A stretch of DNA of 43,251 bases from NCBI GenBank assembly GCA_009694305.1, contig SHVL01000020.1:1-43251 (forward strand), in the 5' to 3' direction. The stretch comes from Thermoleophilia bacterium (GTDB taxonomy: Bacteria; Actinomycetota; Thermoleophilia; Gaiellales; Gaiellaceae). Below the pieces are notes generated by a model. It was not told the DNA's origin. It saw only the letters and a list, made by a program, of their open reading frames with translations, and ran no database searches. The translations under genes were made by a program, and so were the position numbers. This document shows, piece after piece, positions 3 to 43,251 of this stretch (position 1 is its first letter; the number at the start of each line of letters is the position of its first letter).

Positions 3-743
3 AACGTCGTCCTCGCCGCCGCGGGCAACGTCGATCACAAGTGCATCGTCGCCGCGCTGAGGAAGAGCCGAAAGGGGGCCGGAGGCCCGGCGCCGGCGCT
101 GCCCCGCAAGCCCGCAGGTCGGATCGCTGCTCCCGGCGCCCGGTTCCTGCGAAAGAACACGGAGCAGTACCACGTCTGCCTCGCCGGCCCCGGCATTCGC
201 CGGGACGATCCGCGGCGGTATGCCTCGGCGCTCCTCGACGCGATTCTCGGGGGCTCTGCCTCGTCGCGCCTGTTCCAGGAGATCAGGGAGAAGCGCGGCA
301 TGGCGTACTCCGTGTACTCCTACGGATCGCAGTACGTTGACGCGGGCCAGATCGGCATCTACGTCGGAACGCGCGAGGAGAACCTGCGGGAGTGCCTCGA
401 GGTGATCGGGACAGAGCTTCGCGACCTTGGCGCCGGCAACCTCCGGAACGGGGAGCTCGAGCGCGCGAAGGAGAACATGAAGGGGCGCCTGCTGCTCTCG
501 CTCGAGTCCACGTCGGCACGGATGAGTCGGCTCGGCAAGGCGGTGGTGATGGGAACGGAGATCCTGCCGATCGAGGAGATCGAGCGAAGGATCGTTGCCG
601 TCACCGAGGATGATGTCGCGTCACTCGCTCGGGAGCTCTATACGCCGGAGTTCCTTTCGGCCGCCGGGATCGGGCCGAGCGAGAAGCGCTTTCGGGCCGC
701 CGTGCAACGACTCAATCCCGGAGCCCTGGGGCGCGCAGCATGA
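3..743 (+). CDS. M16-family zinc protease, C-terminal part (5' end outside window)
   Basis: The frame is open from base 3 to a TGA at 741-743, giving about 246 residues, so the gene starts upstream of the window. It matches the C-terminal half of processing-peptidase-like M16 proteases, with the conserved segment around REKRGMAYSVYSY (the Arg/Tyr substrate-contact region of the inactive-type domain) and a preceding stretch ending in GGSASSRLFQEI. The zinc motif HxxEH lies in the N-terminal domain and is therefore not visible. Members are usually about 400-440 residues and degrade peptides. The stop overlaps the dapB start (ATGA), so the two are translationally coupled. Confidence 0.85.
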   Translation, partial: NVVLAAAGNVDHKCIVAALRKSRKGAGGPAPALPRKPAGRIAAPGARFLRKNTEQYHVCLAGPGIRRDDPRRYASALLDAILGGSASSRLFQEIREKRGMAYSVYSYGSQYVDAGQIGIYVGTREENLRECLEVIGTELRDLGAGNLRNGELERAKENMKGRLLLSLESTSARMSRLGKAVVMGTEILPIEEIERRIVAVTEDDVASLARELYTPEFLSAAGIGPSEKRFRAAVQRLNPGALGRAA

Positions 744-1384
744 ACCTGCTCATCTTCGGTCGCGAGGGCAAGGTGGGCACCGTTCTGATGCAGTCGCTCT
801 CCACCGCCGGCCACGACGTCCGTGGTGTCGAGGCCGGCGAGCCGGTCGAGCTAGAGGGCATTGACGCGGCCGTGGACTTCACGACGCCCACTGCCGTCCT
901 CGGCAATGCAACGGCAGCGCTCGCGGCTGGTGTTCCCTGCGTGATCGGTACAACCGGGCTCGACGATGCCGGTCTCGCCCAGCTCGACCGGCAGGCGCGT
1001 GAGATGAAGACCCAGTGCTTCGTGGCGGCGAACTTCGCGCTCGGAGCTGTCCTGATGATGCGATTTGCGGCCGAGGCGGCGCGCTCGTTCCCGCGGGCGG
1101 AGATTATCGAGCTTCACGCCGACACCAAGCTCGACGCGCCGTCGGGCACGGCCAAGGCGACCGCCGCCGGGATGGGCGGGGACGTCCCGATCCACTCGGT
1201 TCGCCTCCCGGGCCTCGTCGCCCACCAGGAGGTCATCCTGGGTGGACTGGGGGAGACGCTGACGATCCGCCACGACACGACCTCGCGTGAGGCTTTCGTG
1301 CCGGGCGTGCTCCTTGCGCTCGATCGCGTCCGGGGACTCCCGCACGGGCTCACGTTCGGTCTCGACGCCCTCCTCCCGTCGTAG
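740..1384 (+). CDS. dapB: 4-hydroxy-tetrahydrodipicolinate reductase
   Basis: DapB reduces the DapA product with NAD(P)H to tetrahydrodipicolinate in the diaminopimelate/lysine pathway. The 214-residue protein has an N-terminal dinucleotide-binding loop (FGREGKVG, residues 6-13), FTTPT and GTTG motifs, and the substrate motif LHADTKLDAPSGTA at 125-138. The catalytic His (H126) and Lys (K130) are present, but the second His of the usual HH pair is Ala. The protein is somewhat short for the family (about 240-270). It starts by ATGA overlap with the M16 gene. Its last codons (LLPS-stop) lie inside a repeat element shared with the gene ending at 31900, so the natural C-terminus may have been replaced. 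Confidence 0.93.
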   Translation: MNLLIFGREGKVGTVLMQSLSTAGHDVRGVEAGEPVELEGIDAAVDFTTPTAVLGNATAALAAGVPCVIGTTGLDDAGLAQLDRQAREMKTQCFVAANFALGAVLMMRFAAEAARSFPRAEIIELHADTKLDAPSGTAKATAAGMGGDVPIHSVRLPGLVAHQEVILGGLGETLTIRHDTTSREAFVPGVLLALDRVRGLPHGLTFGLDALLPS

Positions 1385-1543: not shown

Positions 1544-2425
1544 ATGCTCGGGGAGATTCTGACCGCTGTCGTTACCCCGTTTCGACCGGACGGCAGCGTT
1601 GCGCTCGGCCCGTTCCGGGCGCTCTGCCGTCATCTCGTCGAGAACGGCTCGGACGGCATCGTCGTGACGGGCACGACGGGCGAGGCGCCGACTCTCTCCG
1701 ACGACGAACGGTTTGCCCTGTACGAGGTGGCGGTGGACGAGGTCGGCTCCACGCACACGGTTGTGGCGGGGACAGGAACGTACGACACCGCCCACTCGGT
1801 GCACCTCACCGGCCGCGCGCACGAGATCGGCGTGGACGGCTTCCTCGTCGTGACGCCGTACTACAACAAGCCGCCGCAGCGAGGAATCGTCGCGCATGTC
1901 GAGGCGATCGCCGCCGCCACCGACCGGCCGGTCGTCTTCTACGACATCCCGGGCCGTGTCGTTGTTGACGCGGAGCCGGCCACGATCTCCGCACTCGCAG
2001 GAATCGAGAACGTCCGCGCCGTCAAACAGGCGAAGCCTTCGCTCGACGCCGCACGCCATGTGGTCGCCTGCGGCCTCGACCTCTATGCCGGGGACGACGA
2101 TCTCGTGCATCCATTTCTGGAGGTCGGAGGGGTTGGAGGAATCTGCGTCTATACGCACGTCGTGGGACCGCAGGTGAAGGAGTTGGTCGCGCGGTATCGC
2201 AGCGGCGAGCTCGATCGCGCCCGTGCGATCGACGAGGAACTTCGCCCCGCGATCGACCTTCTCCGCGTGCAGACGAACCCGATCGCGATCAAGACGGCGC
2301 TGAACCTGCTCGGTCACAATGTGGGTGGCTTCAGGCTGCCGCTCGTCGATGCAACCGCCGAAGAAGAAGCCGCCGTGCGCGCCTGCCTCGAGCGGCTTGG
2401 CCTGCTGCAACCGCTTGCCGCCTGA
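1544..2425 (+). CDS. dapA: 4-hydroxy-tetrahydrodipicolinate synthase
   Basis: DapA condenses pyruvate with aspartate semialdehyde, the first committed step to diaminopimelate and lysine. The 293-residue protein has the family length and all key residues at E. coli numbering: T44/T45 in GTTGEAP, Y133 and R138 in YDIPGR, and the Schiff-base lysine K161 in AVKQAK. The start follows a TACAAT box by 6 bases with no Shine-Dalgarno, which suggests a leaderless message. It is separated from dapB by 159 bp and probably has its own promoter. Confidence 0.96.
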   Translation: MLGEILTAVVTPFRPDGSVALGPFRALCRHLVENGSDGIVVTGTTGEAPTLSDDERFALYEVAVDEVGSTHTVVAGTGTYDTAHSVHLTGRAHEIGVDGFLVVTPYYNKPPQRGIVAHVEAIAAATDRPVVFYDIPGRVVVDAEPATISALAGIENVRAVKQAKPSLDAARHVVACGLDLYAGDDDLVHPFLEVGGVGGICVYTHVVGPQVKELVARYRSGELDRARAIDEELRPAIDLLRVQTNPIAIKTALNLLGHNVGGFRLPLVDATAEEEAAVRACLERLGLLQPLAA

Positions 2426-32705: not shown

Positions 32706-33734
32706 GTGGAGGCACTCACCAGGCCGCCTCGCGTCCGGCTCGGCGACACCGTGGCAGTCGTGTCCCCGTCTTTCGGGGCGGTGGGACTCTGGCCTCACCG
32801 CGTTCAACGGGCCACTACCTACCTGGAGTCGCTGGGGCTCAAAGTCCGTGTGATGCCGAACGCGGCACGAAGTGAGGGTTGGGCCTCGGCGCCGCCTGAG
32901 GCGCGGGCCGATGATCTGCACCGGGCGTTTCTCGACGATGAGGTAGCGGTGGTGCTGGCAGGTATCGGCGGCAACCACTCGAACCAGCTGCTGCCGCTTC
33001 TCGACTATGACCTGATCCGTGAGCACCCAAAGGTCTTCCAGGGCTACTCCGACATCACCGTTCTGCACTGGGCGCTAGCACAGCATTCCGGTCTTTCGAC
33101 CTTCTACGGCCCTGCGCTTGTCCCCGAACTTGGAGAGTTCCCGCAGGTTTTGGCCCACACCGATCGCTACCTGCGAGCCGCCTGGTTCGGCGATGACGTG
33201 GTTGACTTCGCGCCGGCGGATACCTGGACGGACGAGTTGCTCGACTGGGACACGCAGCAGGATCTGGCGCGACCGCGCGAACTGCACGCGAGTGACGGGT
33301 GGGTCACGATTCGCGAAGGCGCAGCGTCTGGGCCGCTTCTCGGTGGCTGCCTCGAAACGATCTGCTGGCACCTGAAGGGATCTTCTGCGTGGCTCGACCC
33401 CGAGGGCGCGATCCTGTTCCTCGAAATCTCAGAGGAACAACCCCCACCCTCCTCTGTGGATTCGTATCTGACGGATCTCGAACAACTCGGTGTCTTCGAC
33501 GCTGCCGCCGCGCTCGTCCTCGCGCGTCCCCACGGCTACACGCCGAAGGACACGGCGGCTCTGTGGGATGTTGTTGCTCGACGCACGGAAAGCTCAGGTC
33601 TGCCCGTTCTCGCCAACGTCGAAGTTGGTCACGCTGATCCGATGGTGACGGTACCGCTTGGGGTAGAGGCCGAGCTCGACGCAGGCAACGAGGTCTTTCG
33701 CCTGCTCGAGGCACCGACCGTTGCCAGGAGCTAG
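32706..33734 (+). CDS. S66-family peptidase (LD-carboxypeptidase / MccF-like)
   Basis: S66 serine peptidases include murein LD-carboxypeptidases, which recycle tetrapeptides, and MccF, which gives microcin C7 immunity. The 342-residue protein shows DTVAVVSPSFGAVG near the start, GIGGNHSNQLLPLLDYD, the nucleophile motif GYSDIT (about 118-123), and a C-terminal region with GPLLGGCLETICWHLKG, LEISEEQPPPSSVDSYL and VEVGHADPMVTVPLG. The longer insert and overall form are closer to MccF-like members; cell-wall recycling is equally possible. The start is GTG 32706. Confidence 0.88.
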   Translation: MEALTRPPRVRLGDTVAVVSPSFGAVGLWPHRVQRATTYLESLGLKVRVMPNAARSEGWASAPPEARADDLHRAFLDDEVAVVLAGIGGNHSNQLLPLLDYDLIREHPKVFQGYSDITVLHWALAQHSGLSTFYGPALVPELGEFPQVLAHTDRYLRAAWFGDDVVDFAPADTWTDELLDWDTQQDLARPRELHASDGWVTIREGAASGPLLGGCLETICWHLKGSSAWLDPEGAILFLEISEEQPPPSSVDSYLTDLEQLGVFDAAAALVLARPHGYTPKDTAALWDVVARRTESSGLPVLANVEVGHADPMVTVPLGVEAELDAGNEVFRLLEAPTVARS

Positions 33735-33812
33735 TTCGTTCTGGTGCGGCCGCCGACGCTAACCAAGAGTGTCGAGTGGGGAGTTCGGAGAGGCCCCACC
33801 AGCGCAGCCGGG

Positions 33813-33818
33813 TAGGCT
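33813..33818 (+). promoter_or_regulatory. -10 box ahead of murT
   Basis: TAGGCT is 8 bases before ATG 33827 and supports that start over the upstream in-frame codon at 33776. Confidence 0.45.
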
Positions 33819-33826
33819 CGGAGGCG

Positions 33827-35197
33827 ATGGGAGTGCGCCTCACGGTTGAAACGTCGGCCGCCAGGCTCGTCGGCCGTGTCTCACGAGCCGCCGGTCGCGG
33901 CGGCGGTACGACGCTGCCCGGAAAGCTGCTCTGGAAGGTCGACCCGGCCGCCATGGACGCGCTCGCTGCGCGTCTCCCCGCGGGCGTCGCCCTCGTCTCG
34001 GCCACGAACGGAAAGACGACGACCAGTGCGATGCTGGCCCGGATCCTCGGCGGCCGCTTTCAGCTCGCGTGGAACAACTCCGGCGCGAATCTTGCGTCAG
34101 GAGTCGCCTCCACTCTCCTCTCTGCCCGCTCAGCGGATCTCGGCCTCCTCGAGGTCGATGAGTTCGCGCTCCCCGAGGTGATGCGCCGCGTCGAGCCGCG
34201 CGTTGTCTCACTCGGGAATCTCTTCCGCGACCAGCTCGACCGGTACGGCGAGCTCGAGCACATCGCCGAACGCTGGCGGGAAGCCGTGAGCGATCTCTCC
34301 CCCACCTCGATGCTCGTCGTCAACGCCGACGATCCTCTCGTCGCAGATCTCGCGGATGGTCGTGTGCGGGCACTGCGCTACGGGCTCGACGATCCGCGGC
34401 TGGCACGATCGGGCCTGCAGCACGCCGCCGACTCCAAGTACTGCGTCCGGTGTGGCTCCCCGTATGAGTACGCGGCGGCGTACGTCGGCCACCTCGGCGA
34501 CTATCGATGTCCCGCCTGCGGCCATGCGCGACCCCAGCTCGACGTGGCAGCCCGTTCGATCGAGCTCGAAGCGCTCGACGCCTCGGCCTTCGACCTCGTC
34601 ACGCCCGCCGGCACGGCACGGGTGCGGCTCCCACTCCCCGGTCTCTACAACGTCTACAACGCGCTCGCGGCAACGGCGACGGCCCTCGCTCTCGACGCGC
34701 CGCTCGACGAGATCGTCGCCGGGCTCGAAGGCTTCACGGCAGCATTCGGGCGCTTCGAGCGAATCGAGGCGGGAGATCGGCAGATCCTGATCCTGCTGAT
34801 CAAGAACCCGGCAGGGGCGAACGAGGCGGTTCGGACGCTCGAGGAGGGTGGCGTGCCCGAGACGCTCCTGATCGCACTCAACGATCGCATCGCTGACGGG
34901 CGTGACGTCTCCTGGATCTGGGACGTCGACTTCGAGCCGCTGTTCCCGAAGGCTCAGAGGCTCATCGTCAGCGGGGAGCGGGCAGCCGAGCTCGCACTCC
35001 GCTTCACCTACGCGGGGTTCTCGCCGACGCAACTCGAGGTGATCCCCGATCTCCGCGAGGCACTCGATCGCGGCCTCGCCCTCACTCCGGTGGGTGGCGC
35101 GCTCGGCGTGCTCCCGACCTACACGGCGATGCTCGACCTGCGCGCTATCGCCGTGTCCCGCGGGCTCGTGCGGCCGTTCTGGGAGGAGACGCCATGA
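33827..35197 (+). CDS. murT: Lipid II isoglutaminyl synthase, MurT subunit
   Basis: MurT with GatD amidates the D-glutamate of lipid II to D-isoglutamine. The 456-residue protein has a Mur-ligase core with ATP loop SATNGKTTTSAML (about 58-70), NNSGANLASGVAS, LEVDEFALPEV, a zinc ribbon with two CxxC pairs (YCVRCGSPYEY and YRCPACGH, about 205-228) and a C-terminal DUF1727 domain with NPAGANEAVRTL and ALNDRIADGRDVSWIWDVDFE. The gene is complete. It overlaps gatD by ATGA, the normal arrangement. Confidence 0.95.
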   Translation: MGVRLTVETSAARLVGRVSRAAGRGGGTTLPGKLLWKVDPAAMDALAARLPAGVALVSATNGKTTTSAMLARILGGRFQLAWNNSGANLASGVASTLLSARSADLGLLEVDEFALPEVMRRVEPRVVSLGNLFRDQLDRYGELEHIAERWREAVSDLSPTSMLVVNADDPLVADLADGRVRALRYGLDDPRLARSGLQHAADSKYCVRCGSPYEYAAAYVGHLGDYRCPACGHARPQLDVAARSIELEALDASAFDLVTPAGTARVRLPLPGLYNVYNALAATATALALDAPLDEIVAGLEGFTAAFGRFERIEAGDRQILILLIKNPAGANEAVRTLEEGGVPETLLIALNDRIADGRDVSWIWDVDFEPLFPKAQRLIVSGERAAELALRFTYAGFSPTQLEVIPDLREALDRGLALTPVGGALGVLPTYTAMLDLRAIAVSRGLVRPFWEETP

Positions 35198-35934
35198 GGA
35201 TCCGCGTCGCCCATCTCTATCCCGACTACCTGAACATCTATGCCGACCGTGGCAACATCGCCGTCTTCGAACGGCGGGCGGCCCTGCGCGGACACGCCCT
35301 TGAGATCACCGGGGTCGCACCCGGTGCAAGCCTCGATCCGTCGTCGTTCGACCTGATCTACGTCGGCGGTGGTCAGGACCGCGAGCAGGCACTCGTCGCT
35401 CCCGACCTCGCAGAGAGAGGTCAGCTCCTACGCACCGCGGTAGACGAGGGAACAGCGCTCCTCGCGGTCTGTGGCGGCTACCAGCTCCTCGGACGCAGTT
35501 ATCGGGGCCGCGACGGCTCCTCGATGCCGGGTGCAGGGCTCTTCCCGCTCGAAACGGTCGCGGGCGACCGGCGGCTGATCGGCGACGTGCTCCTCGACGT
35601 CGATCTCGACGGGTGTACGACGACGGTGGCCGGGTTCGAGAATCACGCCGGCCGGACGCTGCTCGATCCGGGGGCCGTACCGTTTGGACGGGTGCTCGCC
35701 GGACACGGGAATGACGGTGCCTCGCGGCTCGAAGGCTGTCGCGTCGCCGCTGCGATCGGCACCTACCTCCACGGCCCGCTGCTTCCCCGCAACCCTGTGC
35801 TCGCCGACTGGTTACTCGCCCGTGCGCTCGAGCACGCCGGGGGCGACGGGTATCTCGAGCCCCTCGCAGATGAGCTGGAACGCCTTGCCCACGTCGTATC
35901 GGCCGGGCGCGCCCGCTCCCGTGGCGGGCGATGA
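35194..35934 (+). CDS. gatD: Lipid II isoglutaminyl synthase, glutaminase subunit GatD
   Basis: GatD supplies ammonia from glutamine to MurT. The 246-residue class I amidotransferase-like protein has the nucleophile C93 in LLAVCGGYQLLG and the catalytic His in GTYLHGPLLPRNP near residue 190. The N-terminal LYPDYLNIYADRGNIAVF is typical. It overlaps murT by ATGA. Confidence 0.95.
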   Translation: MRIRVAHLYPDYLNIYADRGNIAVFERRAALRGHALEITGVAPGASLDPSSFDLIYVGGGQDREQALVAPDLAERGQLLRTAVDEGTALLAVCGGYQLLGRSYRGRDGSSMPGAGLFPLETVAGDRRLIGDVLLDVDLDGCTTTVAGFENHAGRTLLDPGAVPFGRVLAGHGNDGASRLEGCRVAAAIGTYLHGPLLPRNPVLADWLLARALEHAGGDGYLEPLADELERLAHVVSAGRARSRGGR

Positions 35935-36715: not shown

Positions 36716-37167
36716 AGCGACCCCAGGTAGACACATGGATCGCCGGGCTCGAATCGGCGCAGAAACCGGCCGATAGGTGGGTGAAGGGCTGTTCCCTCTA
36801 GTTCGTCAAGCCCGAACAGACGGTGGCCACGCACGGCCTCGTCCGTCGAGACGACCTTGGCGAGCGAGCCGGTCAGGTCTCCCGCAAAGACGATGTGGAC
36901 GACGTGCTTCGGCGCGAGGCTCTGTGTCGGGGAGATCGAATCGACGATGAGGACAGGGCCCTCGACCGGGATCTCGTCACCACCCGAAATCAGACCTGTC
37001 TCCTCCCGTAACTCGCGCTGCAGCGCGCCCGTCAGGGTCTCACCGCCCTGCACGCCGCCGCCCGGAAGCAACCAGTTCTCTCTTCCCTGCTTCTCATGAC
37101 GACAGAGCAGAATCCGACCGTGCCAGCGCAGGATCGCCGAGACGCGGATCCGTGGCTCCGGCCTCAT
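36703..37167 (-). CDS. NUDIX hydrolase
   Basis: The 154-residue protein has a complete NUDIX box GX5EX7REUXEEXGU, visible as GGGVQGGETLTGALQRELRE followed by ETGL, near 35-58. NUDIX enzymes cleave nucleoside diphosphates linked to another group. Location between dut and a phosphatase suggests house-cleaning of nucleotides, but the substrate is unknown. The start ATG overlaps the dut stop (ATGA). Confidence 0.88.
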   Translation of the reverse strand: MRPEPRIRVSAILRWHGRILLCRHEKQGRENWLLPGGGVQGGETLTGALQRELREETGLISGGDEIPVEGPVLIVDSISPTQSLAPKHVVHIVFAGDLTGSLAKVVSTDEAVRGHRLFGLDELEGTALHPPIGRFLRRFEPGDPCVYLGSLWAP

Positions 37168-37616
37168 TGCAGACCGGACGAGCCGAAGCCGCCCTCGCCG
37201 CGCGCGGACTCGGTGAGGCCCGTGACCTCGATCACCTCGACCGGGGGAACAGGCATGACGAGCAACTGCGCGATGCGCATTCCCACCTCCACCGTGAAGG
37301 GTTGCTCCCTGTCGGTATTGAGCATAATCACGCGGACTTCACCGCGGTAGCCCTCGTCGATCACGCCCGGCGTGTTGACGAGCGAGATCCCGTGCCGGAG
37401 CGCAAGGCCCGAACGCGGCACGACGAGGCCGACGTGGCCCTTCGGGAGTTCGACCGCGAGGCCGGTCGCGACGAGCGCGCGCTCCCCGGGGCCGATCGTG
37501 GTCGCCTCGCACGCGCTGAGATCGAGCCCCGCATCTTCGCTGTGGGTGCGCGTGGGCAGCACTGCGTCGGGACGCAGCCTCTGCACCTTCAGGTTCGTTG
37601 CGTGCCGTTCGGTCAC
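37164..37616 (-). CDS. dut: dUTP diphosphatase
   Basis: Dut hydrolyses dUTP to dUMP, keeping uracil out of DNA and feeding dTMP synthesis. The 150-residue trimeric-type enzyme has the five family motifs, including AGLDLSA (1), PRSGLALRHG (2), NTPGVIDEGYRGEV (3), IAQLLVMPV (4) and the flexible C-terminal RGEGGFGSSG (5). It lies between hflX and the NUDIX gene with 4-base overlaps on both sides. Confidence 0.96.
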   Translation of the reverse strand: MTERHATNLKVQRLRPDAVLPTRTHSEDAGLDLSACEATTIGPGERALVATGLAVELPKGHVGLVVPRSGLALRHGISLVNTPGVIDEGYRGEVRVIMLNTDREQPFTVEVGMRIAQLLVMPVPPVEVIEVTGLTESARGEGGFGSSGLQ

Positions 37617-38917
37617 GTCGTTGCCGCAGACCCGAGGTCGTCTCCGGCAATGAGGTAGCGGGCGAACCGCCGGCTATCCCGATGCGACAGCTTCGCGCGG
37701 ATCAGCACGCCCTCGTCGGTGTCGTGGCGCTCGTCGATCGGCGCCCCCAGGGCATACAGAGCAGAGAGCGCGTTGCCCTCGTCGTACGGGACGAGGAGCC
37801 GGACGTCCTCGTAGCGGTCGGCGAACAGCGTCGCCACACTCTCCCGCAGTTGCTCGAGGCCCTCGCCCGTCGCGGCAGACACACGTAGTGCGTCGGGAAA
37901 GTGGTTTGCGATTCGCCGCTGGCCGGGCGGGTCGAGCCGATCGATCTTGTTCAGCACGAGGGTGATCGGAAGCTCATCACCTCCGATCTCGGTGAGAACC
38001 GTATCGACGGCGGCGATCTGCTCGTGCATCCTGTCTTCCGGCAGCGACGCATCGACGACGTGGAAGATCAGGTCGGCGACGAGCGTCTCTTCCAGCGTCG
38101 ATGCGAACCCCTGCACGAGCTGGGTCGGCAGCCGCCGGATAAACCCGACCGTATCGGTGACCAGATAGCGCTTCCCGTCGTAGTCGAAGCCGCGCGTCGT
38201 CGGGTCGAGCGTCTCGAAAAGGCGATTCTCGACCGACACGTCGGATCCAGTGAGCGCATTGAGGAGCGTCGATTTACCGACGTTCGTGTAGCCCGCGAGC
38301 GCCACTGTTGGCACCTCTGCGCGCTTACGCTCCTTGCGTCGCACTCCCCGTTGGGCCTGCAGCGTCTTGAGCCGGGCCCGCAAAACCGTGACGCGATGAC
38401 GGGCCATCCTGCGGTCGCTCTCGAGCTGAGACTCGCCGGGGCCGCGGGTTCCGACACCGCCGCCGAGGCGTTCGAGATGCTTCCACATCCCTCGCATCCG
38501 CGGCAGGTTGTACTCGAGTTGCGCGAGCTCGACCTGGAGCTTTCCCTCGGCGCTGATCGCATGCTGGGCGAAGATGGCCAGAATCAGCTGGGTACGATCG
38601 ACGACCCTCGTCGAGAGTGCGTCTTCGAGGGCACGCTGCTGGGTGGGATCGAGCTCGTCGTCAACGATCAGGACGTCGGCGCCGCAGTCGGCGTACAACG
38701 TCTTCAGCTCCTCGAGCTTGCCCTTCCCGACGTAGGTCTTCTGATCGGGCCGGTTGCGTTGCTGCACGAGCTCCTCCACCGGCACGACGAGTGCCGTGCG
38801 GGTGAGCTCGCGCAGCTCGCCGAGCTCGTCTTCGGCATCGGCTCCTCGCGGGAGCACGGCAAGCAGGAGCCCCTTCTCGGGCTCAAGGCCTCCCGGGGTG
38901 TCGGATCGGCCGGTCAT
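37613..38917 (-). CDS. hflX: Ribosome-associated GTPase HflX
   Basis: HflX splits stalled or stress-damaged ribosomes. From ATG 38917 the protein is 434 residues; the longer upstream frame overlaps dapE and is not HflX-like. It has the glycine-rich HflX domain (QKTYVGKGKLEELK, then GMWKHLERLGGGVGTRGPGE), the GTPase G1 loop GYTNVGKST, G3 DTVGFI and G4 NKID, and a C-terminal subdomain. The ATG follows a CATACT box by 6 bases. It heads the four-gene minus-strand operon. Confidence 0.94.
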   Translation of the reverse strand: MTGRSDTPGGLEPEKGLLLAVLPRGADAEDELGELRELTRTALVVPVEELVQQRNRPDQKTYVGKGKLEELKTLYADCGADVLIVDDELDPTQQRALEDALSTRVVDRTQLILAIFAQHAISAEGKLQVELAQLEYNLPRMRGMWKHLERLGGGVGTRGPGESQLESDRRMARHRVTVLRARLKTLQAQRGVRRKERKRAEVPTVALAGYTNVGKSTLLNALTGSDVSVENRLFETLDPTTRGFDYDGKRYLVTDTVGFIRRLPTQLVQGFASTLEETLVADLIFHVVDASLPEDRMHEQIAAVDTVLTEIGGDELPITLVLNKIDRLDPPGQRRIANHFPDALRVSAATGEGLEQLRESVATLFADRYEDVRLLVPYDEGNALSALYALGAPIDERHDTDEGVLIRAKLSHRDSRRFARYLIAGDDLGSAATT

Positions 38918-38923
38918 ACAGAG

Positions 38924-38939
38924 AGTATGCCGGTAGGCT
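38924..38939. promoter_or_regulatory. Interlocked divergent -10 boxes of hflX and dapE
   Basis: The two ATGs are separated by only 28 bp. On the minus strand CATACT (38924-38929) is 6 bases before hflX; on the plus strand TAGGCT (38934-38939) is 6 bases before dapE. Each promoter's -35 region must lie within the other gene's first codons. Confidence 0.55.
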
Positions 38940-38945
38940 CGGGCC

Positions 38946-40013
38946 ATGACAGCCCTCGCACAGCGGCTCGCACAGCGGACGCTCGAGCTCGTAGACATCC
39001 CGTCTGAGAGCCTCAACGAAGCGAAGGTGCGCTCGCACTTGCTTGCGCTCGTTCCTCCGGTCTTCGAGGCCGAGTACGCCGCCGATGACGCATTCGTTTT
39101 TGCGCGGCCACGCCGGGCGGGCGTCCCGCTCGTTGTCCTCGTCGGGCATTACGACACCGTGCCCGCGCAGGACAACGTCCCCGGCCGCATCGCAGACGGT
39201 GCAGTCCACGGCTGCGGTGCGAGCGACATGAAGGGAGGCGTCGCGGTTGCGCTCGAGATCGTGCGCGAGCTCGCGCTCGGCGAGCCAGGGCGCGTGGACG
39301 TCGCCCTGCTCCTGTTTGGCAAGGAGGAGCTTCCGGCACACTTCAGCCCGTTGCCCGACCTGTTCGAGCGGTCGCAACTCATGGCCGGCGCAGGTCTCGC
39401 GATCCTGCTCGAACCGACCGATCTGACGCTCCAGGCCGGCTGCCTCGGCAACATGAATGCGCGCATCACGTTCTCGGGTGTCAGCGGGCACTCCGCAAGG
39501 CCCTGGACGGCCGAGAACGCGATCGAGAAGGCGCTGCTCGGGCTGGCCCCGATCGCCGCCCTCGAGCGGCGCGAGGCTCTCGTCGGTGGTCTGCCGTTCT
39601 ACGAGGTCGCCTCGATCACGCAGATAGAGGGCGGCATCGCCTCGAACGTGATTCCCGACCGCACCGTTGCGACGCTGAACTTCCGGTATGCGCCTGACCG
39701 CTCGCCCGAGAGCGCGGCCGCGTATCTCCGTTCGCTCGCGCCCGTGGGGGCCGAGCTCGAGATCACCGGCGACTCACCACCCGCCACGGTCGTGACCGAC
39801 ACCCCGCTCGTCCGGGCGTTGCGCGATGCCGGCGACCTGACGTTCGAGCCGAAGCAGGCCTGGACGAACGTCGCCGATTTCACGATGCGGGGGATCGACG
39901 CGATCAACTTCGGGCCGGGAGGCACCCGCTACGCCCATCGCCGAGACGAACTCGTGGAGATCGACGCGCTCGTGACGGCGTACGAGACCCTGCTTCGGTT
40001 CCTCGTGGCCTGA
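38946..40013 (+). CDS. dapE: Succinyl-diaminopimelate desuccinylase
   Basis: DapE, an M20 zinc peptidase-like enzyme, removes succinate to give LL-diaminopimelate. The 355-residue protein has the metal ligands in VGHYDTVPAQ, CGASDMKGG, GKEELP (the catalytic and ligand Glu pair), LEPTD and the C-terminal GTRYAHRRDE. The dimerisation domain contains GVSGHSARPW. M20 members are diverse, but adjacency to dapC and dapD fixes the assignment. The start follows a -10 box by 6 bases. Confidence 0.93.
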   Translation: MTALAQRLAQRTLELVDIPSESLNEAKVRSHLLALVPPVFEAEYAADDAFVFARPRRAGVPLVVLVGHYDTVPAQDNVPGRIADGAVHGCGASDMKGGVAVALEIVRELALGEPGRVDVALLLFGKEELPAHFSPLPDLFERSQLMAGAGLAILLEPTDLTLQAGCLGNMNARITFSGVSGHSARPWTAENAIEKALLGLAPIAALERREALVGGLPFYEVASITQIEGGIASNVIPDRTVATLNFRYAPDRSPESAAAYLRSLAPVGAELEITGDSPPATVVTDTPLVRALRDAGDLTFEPKQAWTNVADFTMRGIDAINFGPGGTRYAHRRDELVEIDALVTAYETLLRFLVA

Positions 40014-40015
40014 CC

Positions 40016-41164
40016 GTGCCCGTCTCCCCCATCCTTCGCGGTCAGGCGACGTACCCGTTCGTGCGGCTGAACCAGGCTGCGGCGGCGCGCCGGGCCGAGG
40101 GGCTCGACGTGATCGACTTCGGGATGGGAGATCCCCGAGAGCCAACCGATCCACGCATCATCGAAGCGCTACGGGACGGCGTGCGCGAGCGCATGGGGTA
40201 TCCCGCTGCAGTCGGGCTGCCGGAACTGCGCGAGGCGATTGTGGCGTGGGTCGGTCGCCGTTTCGGTGCGCACCTCGACCCGGAGACACACGTGATTCCC
40301 ACCCTCGGCTCCAAGGAGGCGATCTTCTCGTTCGCCCAGGTCGTGCTCGACATCGCAGGCGGCCACGACACCGTCGTCGTGACCGAGCCCGGATATCCCG
40401 TGGCCGTACGTGGGGCCCTGTTCGCGGGCGCGCGCGTCGAGGAACTGCCGTTGCTCGAGAGCAACGGCTTTCTGCCCGACCTCGACGCTGTTCCCCTGGA
40501 GACCTGGCGGCGTACAGCTCTCTGCTGGGTCAATTATCCGAACAACCCGACAGGCGCCACGGCCCCGCTTTCGTTCTACGAGCGCCTCGCGGCACTCGCG
40601 CGGGAGCACGGCTTCGTCCTCGCCTCCGATGAGGCCTACACGGAGCTGTGGTTCGACGAGCCGCCCGTCTCGGCCCTACAGCTCTCCGACTGGCAGAACC
40701 TGGCCGTCTTCAACACGCTCTCGAAGCGGTCGTCGATGACGGGCTACCGCTCGGGCTTCGTCGCCGGAGATCCGGAGCTCATCGCCGCGTTGAAGCAGTT
40801 TCGGCCGAACGTGGGCACCGCGCCGCAGGAGTTCGTCCAGCGGGCGTCGGTCGTTGCGTGGGGTGACGAGGGGCACGTCGAGCGCGCCCGCACGGCCTAC
40901 GCGGCCAAGAGGAAGCTGTTCCTCGACCTGTTCGCGCGCGTAGGGTTGCGCGATGCCGGCGGGTCGGCGACGATGTACCTCTGGGTCGCCGTGCCGGCCG
41001 GTGAGACCTCGGAGGCATTTGCCTCGCGTCTTCTCGAGCAGGGCATCCTCGTTGCTCCGGGATCGTTCCTCGGCACCTCGGGTGAGGGCTTCGTCCGGTT
41101 TGCGCTCGTGCCCACGCTGGACGAGTGCCAGCGGGCGATCGAGATTCTCGAGAGCGTTCTGTGA
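40016..41164 (+). CDS. dapC: N-succinyldiaminopimelate aminotransferase (DapC-type)
   Basis: This 382-residue class I PLP aminotransferase begins with GTG two bases after dapE. It has DFGMGDPREPTDPRI near the start, NYPNNPTG (substrate/cofactor Asn), SDEAYTELWF, and the PLP-lysine motif FNTLSKRSSMTGYRSGF. In the pathway it transaminates N-succinyl-2-amino-6-ketopimelate with glutamate. The neighbours dapE and dapD make this role much more likely than a general aspartate or alanine aminotransferase. Confidence 0.92.
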   Translation: MPVSPILRGQATYPFVRLNQAAAARRAEGLDVIDFGMGDPREPTDPRIIEALRDGVRERMGYPAAVGLPELREAIVAWVGRRFGAHLDPETHVIPTLGSKEAIFSFAQVVLDIAGGHDTVVVTEPGYPVAVRGALFAGARVEELPLLESNGFLPDLDAVPLETWRRTALCWVNYPNNPTGATAPLSFYERLAALAREHGFVLASDEAYTELWFDEPPVSALQLSDWQNLAVFNTLSKRSSMTGYRSGFVAGDPELIAALKQFRPNVGTAPQEFVQRASVVAWGDEGHVERARTAYAAKRKLFLDLFARVGLRDAGGSATMYLWVAVPAGETSEAFASRLLEQGILVAPGSFLGTSGEGFVRFALVPTLDECQRAIEILESVL

Positions 41165-41211
41165 CACCTTCCTCGCGCGGCACCACTCCGGATACGCCAC
41201 AATCAGCGACG

Positions 41212-42009
41212 ATGGAGCTTGCGCAGCAGATCGAGGAGATGTGGGAGTCCGGGTCGCTCGACCCTGCCCGCGTGGAGGATGCAATCGCTCTGCTCGATGC
41301 TGGCGCAATCCGCGTTGCCGAGCCGACCACCGCCGGCTGGGTCGTGAACGAATGGGTGAAGAAGGCGATCCTGCTCTACTTCCGGGTCCGCAAAGTCGAG
41401 CCGATGGACGTCGGAGGGCTCCACTTCCTGGACAAGATTCCCGTCAAGACGGACTATGCCGACCGTGGTGTGCGCGTCGTACCGCCGGGTGTCGCGCGCT
41501 ATGGCTCGTTCCTCTCCGAGGGCTGCGTCCTGATGCCGGGCTACGTGAACATCGGTGCCTGGGTCGGGCCCCGGACGATGGTGGACACGTGGGCGACCGT
41601 GGGCTCATGTGCCCAGATCGGAGCCGACGTCCATCTCGCGGGCGGCGTCGGTATCGGCGGCGTCCTCGAGCCACCCCAGGCGACGCCCGTGATCATCGAG
41701 GACGGTGCGTTCATCGGATCGCGTGCCGTGATCGTCGAGGGGGTGAGGATCGGAGCCGGAGCCGTGATTGCGCCGAACGTGGTGCTGTCGGCGTCGATTC
41801 CCATTATCGACGTGACCGGGCCGGAGCCGGTCGAGTACCGCGGAGAGGTACCGGCGCGCAAGGTCGTCCTCCCGGGTGTCCGGCAGAAAGAGTTTCCTGC
41901 TGGCTCCTACGGCCTGAACTGTGCGCTCATCGTGGGTGAGCGCAATGCGTCAACGGATCTGAAGACGTCCCTGAACGACGTTCTGCGCGAGTTCGAGATC
42001 GCCGTCTAG
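41212..42009 (+). CDS. dapD: Tetrahydrodipicolinate N-succinyltransferase
   Basis: DapD transfers succinyl from succinyl-CoA to tetrahydrodipicolinate. From ATG 41212 the protein is 265 residues, the length of the E. coli-type enzyme. It has the N-terminal helical domain, the family segment WVVNEWVKKAILLYFR (about 45-60), and a left-handed beta-helix of hexapeptide repeats including VNIGAWVGPRTMVDTWATVG and GVGIGGVLEPPQATPVIIED. CACAAT 8 bases before the ATG may be a secondary -10 box. It ends the dapE-dapC-dapD operon. Confidence 0.94.
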   Translation: MELAQQIEEMWESGSLDPARVEDAIALLDAGAIRVAEPTTAGWVVNEWVKKAILLYFRVRKVEPMDVGGLHFLDKIPVKTDYADRGVRVVPPGVARYGSFLSEGCVLMPGYVNIGAWVGPRTMVDTWATVGSCAQIGADVHLAGGVGIGGVLEPPQATPVIIEDGAFIGSRAVIVEGVRIGAGAVIAPNVVLSASIPIIDVTGPEPVEYRGEVPARKVVLPGVRQKEFPAGSYGLNCALIVGERNASTDLKTSLNDVLREFEIAV

Positions 42010-42053: not shown

Positions 42054-42812
42054 TCAGGGGAGCGTGGTCGTGCCACGGGCGACGCATTCTGCAGGACCCG
42101 TCAACGACGCGCGCCCGGCCGCGACGCGCACGAGCAGGTCGCCACCCGGTAGGTGAACCGTGACGGGGCTGTCGCACCAGCCGCGCTCGACCGCGACTGC
42201 GGCAGCAGCGACCGAGGAGGAGCCGGAGGAGGTCGTCTCCCCCGCGCCCCGCTCCCACACGAGGACAGTCAGGTCGTGTCGCCCGTCAACGCCCACGAGC
42301 TGAACATTCGTGCGACCGGGAAACCGGGAATGGTTCTCGACGAGCGGGCCGAGACGGAGTAGGTCGTCGCGCGTCGGGTCGTCGAGACGGATGACGGCGT
42401 GCGGATTTCCGACCGATACCACCGTCAACTCGATTCCATCGAGCATCTCGGGTTGTTCGACCGTCACGGCCCCCACGTCGGTGTCCACATCGAGGGCGTC
42501 GAGCATCCGCGCAGCGATACGACGGCCCGCGGTCTCGATCGTCACCTCGGAGGCCCCCGTCTCTGACGCGAGCCAGCGGGCAGCGATGCGGACACCGTTG
42601 CCGGACATCTCCGCCGTCGAACCGTCGGGGTTCCAGATTGTCACGACGGCACTCGTGTCGGCACGCGCGGTGATCTCGAGAACGCCGTCCGAGCCGATTC
42701 CCGTGGAGATGGAGCAGAGCCGTTGCACGCGTTGCGGCGTAAGCAGTCCGGCGTCGGGTTGCTCCACCACGAGGTAGCTATTGCCGAGTGCCTGCCATTT
42801 TGAGAACTGCAC
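42054..42812 (-). CDS. dapF: Diaminopimelate epimerase homologue lacking both catalytic cysteines
   Basis: DapF converts LL- to meso-diaminopimelate by a two-cysteine mechanism. The 252-residue protein (GTG 42812) has the family fold signatures: KWQALGNSYLVVE with the substrate Asn (N11), MSGNGVRIAARW and ERGAGETTSSGSSS. In active enzymes these read GNGxRC and GETxACGTG. Here the first catalytic Cys is Ile76 and the second is Ser196. The frame is intact and other residues are conserved, so this is not random decay. Either it is inactive or altered in chemistry, or another racemase supplies meso-diaminopimelate. It is convergent with dapD. Confidence 0.85.
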   Translation of the reverse strand: MQFSKWQALGNSYLVVEQPDAGLLTPQRVQRLCSISTGIGSDGVLEITARADTSAVVTIWNPDGSTAEMSGNGVRIAARWLASETGASEVTIETAGRRIAARMLDALDVDTDVGAVTVEQPEMLDGIELTVVSVGNPHAVIRLDDPTRDDLLRLGPLVENHSRFPGRTNVQLVGVDGRHDLTVLVWERGAGETTSSGSSSVAAAAVAVERGWCDSPVTVHLPGGDLLVRVAAGRASLTGPAECVARGTTTLP

Positions 42813-43026: not shown

Positions 43027-43251
43027 CTACGGGTCGAGGGTCGCGCCGGTGAGGTCTGCACGGCTGAGATCTGCACCCACCAGGTTTGCGCCGGTGAGAT
43101 CTGCGCCGGCGACGTTCGCATCGAAGAGGTTCGCGCCGGTGAGGTTCGCGCCGGTGAGGTCTGCCCCGCCCATGGTCGCACCGGTGAGGGTCGCACCGAC
43201 GAGGTTCGTGCCGAAGAGGTTCGCACTGGTGAGCTTCGCATAGTCGAGGTT
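43027..43251 (-). CDS. Pentapeptide-repeat protein, C-terminal part (5' end outside window)
   Basis: On the minus strand the frame is open from the right edge to TAG at 43027-43029, giving 74 residues of near-perfect A(D/N)LxG pentapeptide repeats (ANLTG, ADLTG, ANLVG and so on, about 14 units). These form a right-handed square beta-helix. It ends GATLDP. The 5' end lies outside the window, so any other domain is unseen. The function is unknown; some such proteins mimic DNA and protect gyrase, most are uncharacterised. Confidence 0.85.
   Translation of the reverse strand, partial: NLDYAKLTSANLFGTNLVGATLTGATMGGADLTGANLTGANLFDANVAGADLTGANLVGADLSRADLTGATLDP

Follow-up and report, generated by a model that had tools for sequence, protein, structure and literature searches.

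How could a DAP epimerase work with neither of its catalytic cysteines? This question is raised by the dapF gene of a Thermoleophilia bacterium (contig SHVL01000020.1; "the window" below is the whole stretch analysed, 43,251 nt). Known DapF enzymes use a thiol/thiolate pair flanking the alpha carbon, and in the textbook mechanism a cysteine thiolate with a pKa of about 8.5 removes a proton with a pKa of about 29 (PMC12039745). In alignments to solved DapF structures, Ser70 of the window protein (the S of MSGNG in AEMSGNGVR) pairs with the C of EMCGNG and Ser196 (GETTSSG) pairs with the cysteine of the GET-ACG motif. Serine thus replaces both acid/base cysteines: Ser70 stands in place of the first, Cys73, and Ser196 in place of the second, Cys217. 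Because both defining cysteines are absent, the window DapF falls outside the two-thiol (Cys/Cys) cofactor-independent epimerases. An earlier note on this DNA was right that neither catalytic cysteine is present and that Ser196 is the second catalytic position, but it took Ile76 for the first and overlooked the Cys-to-Ser change at both sites. Ile76, six residues past Ser70, is a non-catalytic neighbour; the alignment rules it out as a catalytic residue.

By descent, fold and ligands the window protein is a DapF. It scores 197.8 bits against the curated equivalog TIGR00652 (cut-off 114.65) and its open frame (Table 1) is intact, as had been noted before. AlphaFold (mean pLDDT 96.3, pTM 0.92) and Foldseek both return the two-domain DapF fold; the top Foldseek matches are DapF structures, with TM-scores of up to 0.91 (9mro best). 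In the model, residues 71 and 197, immediately after Ser70 and Ser196, each open a helix, just as helices 2 and 4 of known DapF structures carry the catalytic cysteines at their N-termini (PMC12039745). The DAP ligands N11, N61, N136, N169, E187 and R188 (window numbering; for their roles in DAP binding see PMC12039745) are all retained, which confirms the earlier remark on N11 and other substrate residues; the set consists of asparagines from both domains and of E187 and R188, which belong to the WERG motif. These ligands are practically invariant across the Ser/Ser and Cys/Cys groups of the DapF alignment alike, and together with the active-site glycines they are conserved as well in Ser/Ser as in Cys/Cys enzymes.

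Table 1. Genes and codons of the window that bear on the Ser/Ser DapF
Feature	Position	Strand	Remarks
dapB	740..1384	+	PF05173 and PF01113; intact on full reading
dapA	1544..2425	+	PF00701, 254.9 bits
dut	37164..37616	-	NF001862, 176.1 bits; synteny; second marker of the conserved locus
hflX	37613..39016	-	TIGR03156, 424.7 bits; synteny; marker of the conserved dapF locus
dapE	38946..40013	+	TIGR01900, 325.3 bits (cut-off 304.2)
dapC, succinyl-DAP aminotransferase	40016..41164	+	best family TIGR03537, 415.1 bits, somewhat below cut-off (453.6)
dapD	41125..42009	+	NF008808, 323.5 bits (cut-off 204)
dapF, Ser/Ser variant	42054..42812	-	252 aa, GTG start; TIGR00652, two PF01678 domains
Ser196, codon TCC	42225..42227	-	aligns with catalytic Cys217
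Ile76, codon ATC	42585..42587	-	non-catalytic, first active-site helix
Ser70, codon TCC	42603..42605	-	aligns with catalytic Cys73 of H. influenzae/E. coli DapF

The other DAP genes, dapA to dapE, are present in the window and look intact, in agreement with the earlier note; the true start of dapD is probably inside the listed frame, past the end of dapC, and for hflX the TTG at 39016 is probably too early a start. The genome is 2.47 Mb in size and 97% complete, and its closest named relatives are Thermoleophilia MAGs, including Candidatus Gaiellasilicea (family Gaiellaceae). A second dapF, which would make the window gene a paralogue, and a DAP dehydrogenase had both been envisaged. A genome-wide search returned a single DapF gene and no second one, and DAP dehydrogenase (Ddh, PF16654) was found in none of 61 genomes, this one included, while the C. 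glutamicum positive control was detected. Full DapF was found in 57 of these genomes, mostly incomplete MAGs, at one copy per genome; G003 has a full DapF and an extra 22-bit fragment with stops. Outside Actinomycetota, 37 of 38 genomes with a single, Ser/Ser DapF match are without the dehydrogenase, the exception showing a weak match to it. With a single DapF and no dehydrogenase, the window's lineage has no other recognised source of meso-DAP, which leaves the earlier suggestion that meso-DAP is made elsewhere without a candidate. The genome also carries lysA (394.8 bits) and, at a contig edge, a murE with the DNPR motif. This motif distinguishes DAP-adding from lysine-adding MurE ligases; it does not separate LL- from meso-DAP. 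No paper that gives the DAP isomer of Gaiella turned up in a literature search. Solirubrobacter, a member of the same class, has meso-DAP (PMC10722151).

Three further observations concern these surroundings. In the same-genus genome G003, lysA matches in two adjoining pieces (G003:C1:879886-881101; profile 7-179 and 187-416), which suggests a frameshift or an assembly error. Near the dap genes, window positions 32706-35934 (+) encode an LD-carboxypeptidase (peptidase S66) and then a MurT/GatD-like pair of the kind that amidates lipid II. Beyond the dapF start, a pentapeptide-repeat-like frame (NLTGANLFDANVAGADLTGANL...) at 43027-43251 (-) is cut by the contig end; the label comes from reading the repeats, the short piece having no Pfam match.

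The earlier note had asked whether the substitution is clade-wide. It is, and it extends more widely still; selection clearly acts on the gene, as the note supposed. Of 323 aligned DapF proteins, 187 have a Cys/Cys catalytic pair, 132 have Ser/Ser and 3 have Ser70/Cys196; the remaining gene is truncated at the end of its contig. In f1, the family of the window, all 50 sequences covering both sites are Ser/Ser, and the 51st (L025) has Ser70 but stops short of the second site at a contig edge; since both serines are fixed in all 50, chance or sequencing error is excluded. Within the same order, f2 is Ser/Ser (5/5) and f3 and f4 are Cys/Cys; within the same class, f8 and f9 are Ser/Ser (13/13). 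Families f5, f7 and f73 are Cys/Cys. The Thermoleophilia family f6 is a mix of Cys/Cys and the three Ser70/Cys196 proteins, from which it follows that the two catalytic sites need not change together. That mixed pairs never occur had been true for 243 sequences and was refuted by these three (L382, L383 and L390, from genomes G366, G373 and G370); G345, with the same genus code, is Cys/Cys. Likewise, an invariant Ile76 looked like a hallmark of all Ser/Ser enzymes in a first sample, and was dropped as such on account of the Glu or Gln of f8 and f9: position 76 is Ile in 119 and Glu or Gln in 13 of the 132 Ser/Ser proteins, and in the 187 Cys/Cys proteins it is Cys (118), Met (40) or another residue (29). 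A degenerate DNA pattern for SGNGxRI gave mostly chance matches in 296 genomes of the phylum.

Beyond the phylum, a distinct Ser/Ser clade comprises proteins from Nitrospirae, Deltaproteobacteria and Victivallales records and from many relatives of these. The serine codons of this clade are AGY in 46 and TCN in 14 cases at position 70, and TCN in 53 and AGY in 7 cases at position 196. The use of both codon families points to selection for serine itself. Two Nitrospirae and one deltaproteobacterium carry both a Ser/Ser and a Cys/Cys dapF (L045/L143, L046/L135 and L048/L142 in G061, G062 and G063), and the Ser/Ser gene L045 has a housekeeping neighbourhood. In relatives of the Victivallales genome there are also divergent second DapF-like proteins (L362-L371, with LCGNGTAC and FEFGVE.ETLACGTG), which are Cys/Cys with an altered ERG motif and an altered conserved Arg after GNGx; they possibly act on another substrate.

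The gene order around dapF links the two kinds of enzyme. The dap genes, hflX and dut are found together in f1, f2 and f3, confirming an orthologous locus with the Cys/Cys dapF of the same-order family f3. The order is dapD-dapE-dapF-dapC-hflX-dut in f3 and dapF-dapC-hflX-dut in f2; f1 has either the latter order or an arrangement in which dapD, dapC and dapE, on the opposite strand, lie between dapF and hflX-dut. The Ser/Ser gene is therefore at the ancestral locus and is not a paralogue added in this order.

In a tree of 91 proteins, built with the motif columns omitted, f1 groups with the Cys/Cys family f5 (94/95), f2 groups with the Cys/Cys family f3 (97/92), f8/f9 adjoin f2+f3 (98/93), and the Ser/Ser clade of other phyla stands apart (96/97). 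The best tree needs four changes for the Ser/Ser pair, five for Ser70 and four for Ser196, and none of 200 bootstrap trees unites all Ser/Ser proteins in one clade. In AU tests, placing all Ser/Ser proteins together is not quite rejected (p = 0.069; 0.067 on a smaller set), nor is joining f1 with the clade of other phyla (p = 0.41) or with f8/f9 (p = 0.056). A single clade of f1+f2 is rejected (p = 0.018), in a test that was picked after the tree had been seen. A fair statement is that the Cys/Ser switch would have happened at least twice, and four times on the best tree; some switches could be reversions to cysteine because the tree does not fix the direction of change.

With confidence slightly above even, we propose that the window gene would encode a functional DAP epimerase in which the serines at the two helix N-termini carry out proton transfer. 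The proposal builds on the observed sequence and its conservation, the orthologous locus, the predicted fold and the lack of a recognisable alternative; we infer the activity (from the pathway context), the substrate and the roles of the serines as acid and base. The gene is probably not broken, its product being a working enzyme whose chemistry has changed, and of the three options in the earlier note "another chemistry" fits best. We are more confident that the protein produces meso-DAP than that the serines serve as the bases. In the proposed reaction, Ser70 and Ser196 would flank the alpha carbon of bound LL-DAP, supplied by DapE, and domain closure would drive water out of the active site. 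The helix dipole and backbone NH groups would make one serine acidic enough to abstract the alpha proton; the other would return a proton from the opposite face, the meso-DAP product supplying LysA and MurE. A possible gain is that the serine pair would be incapable of forming the disulfide that inactivates oxidised Cys/Cys DapF. Counting against this proposal, thiols are far more acidic than the hydroxyl of serine, and the alignment shows no new conserved base that could assist the serines. Cys-to-Ser mutants of a histidine racemase with the DapF fold, which lose most of their activity (PMC11602996), count against it as well. On the other hand, an aspartate/glutamate racemase with Thr for Cys works in one direction (PMC8142540), and a natural Ser/Cys pair performs two-base epimerisation in the related 4-hydroxyproline epimerase (PMC4113996).

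It is unlikely, in our judgement, that the Ser/Ser protein has another substrate or catalyses another reaction (e.g., one-sided exchange or elimination) and that an unrecognised enzyme makes meso-DAP. The chief doubt about our proposal comes from the three genomes outside Actinomycetota in which Ser/Ser and Cys/Cys proteins occur side by side: the former may have a separate role there, and in the window's lineage it could likewise have another task if such an unrecognised enzyme existed. A protein of Fusobacterium annotated as DapF proved to be a histidine racemase (PMC11602996), and a Ser/Thr pair accompanies a dehydratase of hydroxyproline in the proline racemase superfamily (PMC4113996). 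However, the residues gripping the far end of DAP are all retained, the gene is at the ancestral dapF locus adjoining dapC, dapD and dapE, and the genome and its relatives have LysA and MurE and neither another DapF nor a DAP dehydrogenase. Ligand conservation, locus and the missing alternative all weigh against this explanation, including the "another substrate" of the earlier note, without settling the matter.

We regard it as quite improbable that the protein is a DAP epimerase whose serines are place-holders, the proton being moved by another group such as a serine-held water or groups of the substrate itself. Such an enzyme would fit both the weakness of serine as a base and the impaired histidine racemase mutants cited above; yet in 322 proteins both sites hold only Cys or Ser and never Ala, Gly or Thr, and the alignment of Ser/Ser against Cys/Cys groups revealed no additional conserved acid or base common to the Ser/Ser groups, Lys69 being confined to the non-actinobacterial Ser/Ser clade. 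A catalytically dead protein retained as a binding partner, for which the complexes of E. coli DapF with the RNA pyrophosphohydrolase RppH (PDB structure titles) offer a precedent, is very improbable, given that all substrate ligands and active-site glycines are no less conserved than their counterparts in Cys/Cys enzymes, that the pathway of many lineages would be left with no recognisable epimerase, and that residues no longer needed would be expected to drift and are instead fixed as serine.

The favoured reading, a serine-based DAP epimerase, can be compared with known systems. The Cys/Cys DapF enzymes of H. influenzae, C. glutamicum and Anabaena have the same fold, DAP ligands and pathway context and a catalytic pair at the helix N-termini. 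A catalytic disulfide switches off C. glutamicum DapF (PMC5296763); neither a thiol-thiolate pair nor such an inactivating disulfide is possible in the window DapF, which is Ser/Ser and not Cys/Cys. The H. influenzae DapF structures C73S and C217S (PDB 2q9h and 2q9j, by their titles) carry the same substitutions, but as single engineered mutants, whereas the window DapF is a natural double variant. HisR of Fusobacterium nucleatum, the histidine racemase formerly annotated as DapF, shares the fold but has a Cys/Cys pair of its own and another substrate, and is badly impaired by Cys-to-Ser mutation (PMC11602996). Two proteins of the proline racemase superfamily with a related fold, 4-hydroxyproline 2-epimerase B9JQV3 (Ser93/Cys) and trans-3-hydroxyproline dehydratase B9K4G4 (Ser90/Thr), have serine instead of a catalytic cysteine on one face; they differ from the window DapF in having other substrates and one serine per pair, and the accessible part of their source reports no Ser/Ser pair (PMC4113996). 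Searches of the open-access literature turned up no description of a natural Ser/Ser DapF; subscription journals could hold one.

More tentatively, and with less than even confidence, we suggest that Cys/Cys was exchanged for Ser/Ser repeatedly (at least twice, four times on the best tree), with a Ser/Cys form persisting in one family, to yield redox-insensitive DAP epimerases that would use serine hydroxyls only. If the serine-based reading is true, the thiol is dispensable in the DapF fold and the protein environment does the work, and many DapF annotations conceal a different active site. The Cys/Cys, Ser/Cys and Ser/Ser sets within one bacterial class form a natural series for testing the need for a thiol. 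Thiol-reactive DapF inhibitors such as aziridino-DAP might then fail on Ser/Ser enzymes, and in the Ser/Ser lineages lysine and cell-wall synthesis may lack redox control.
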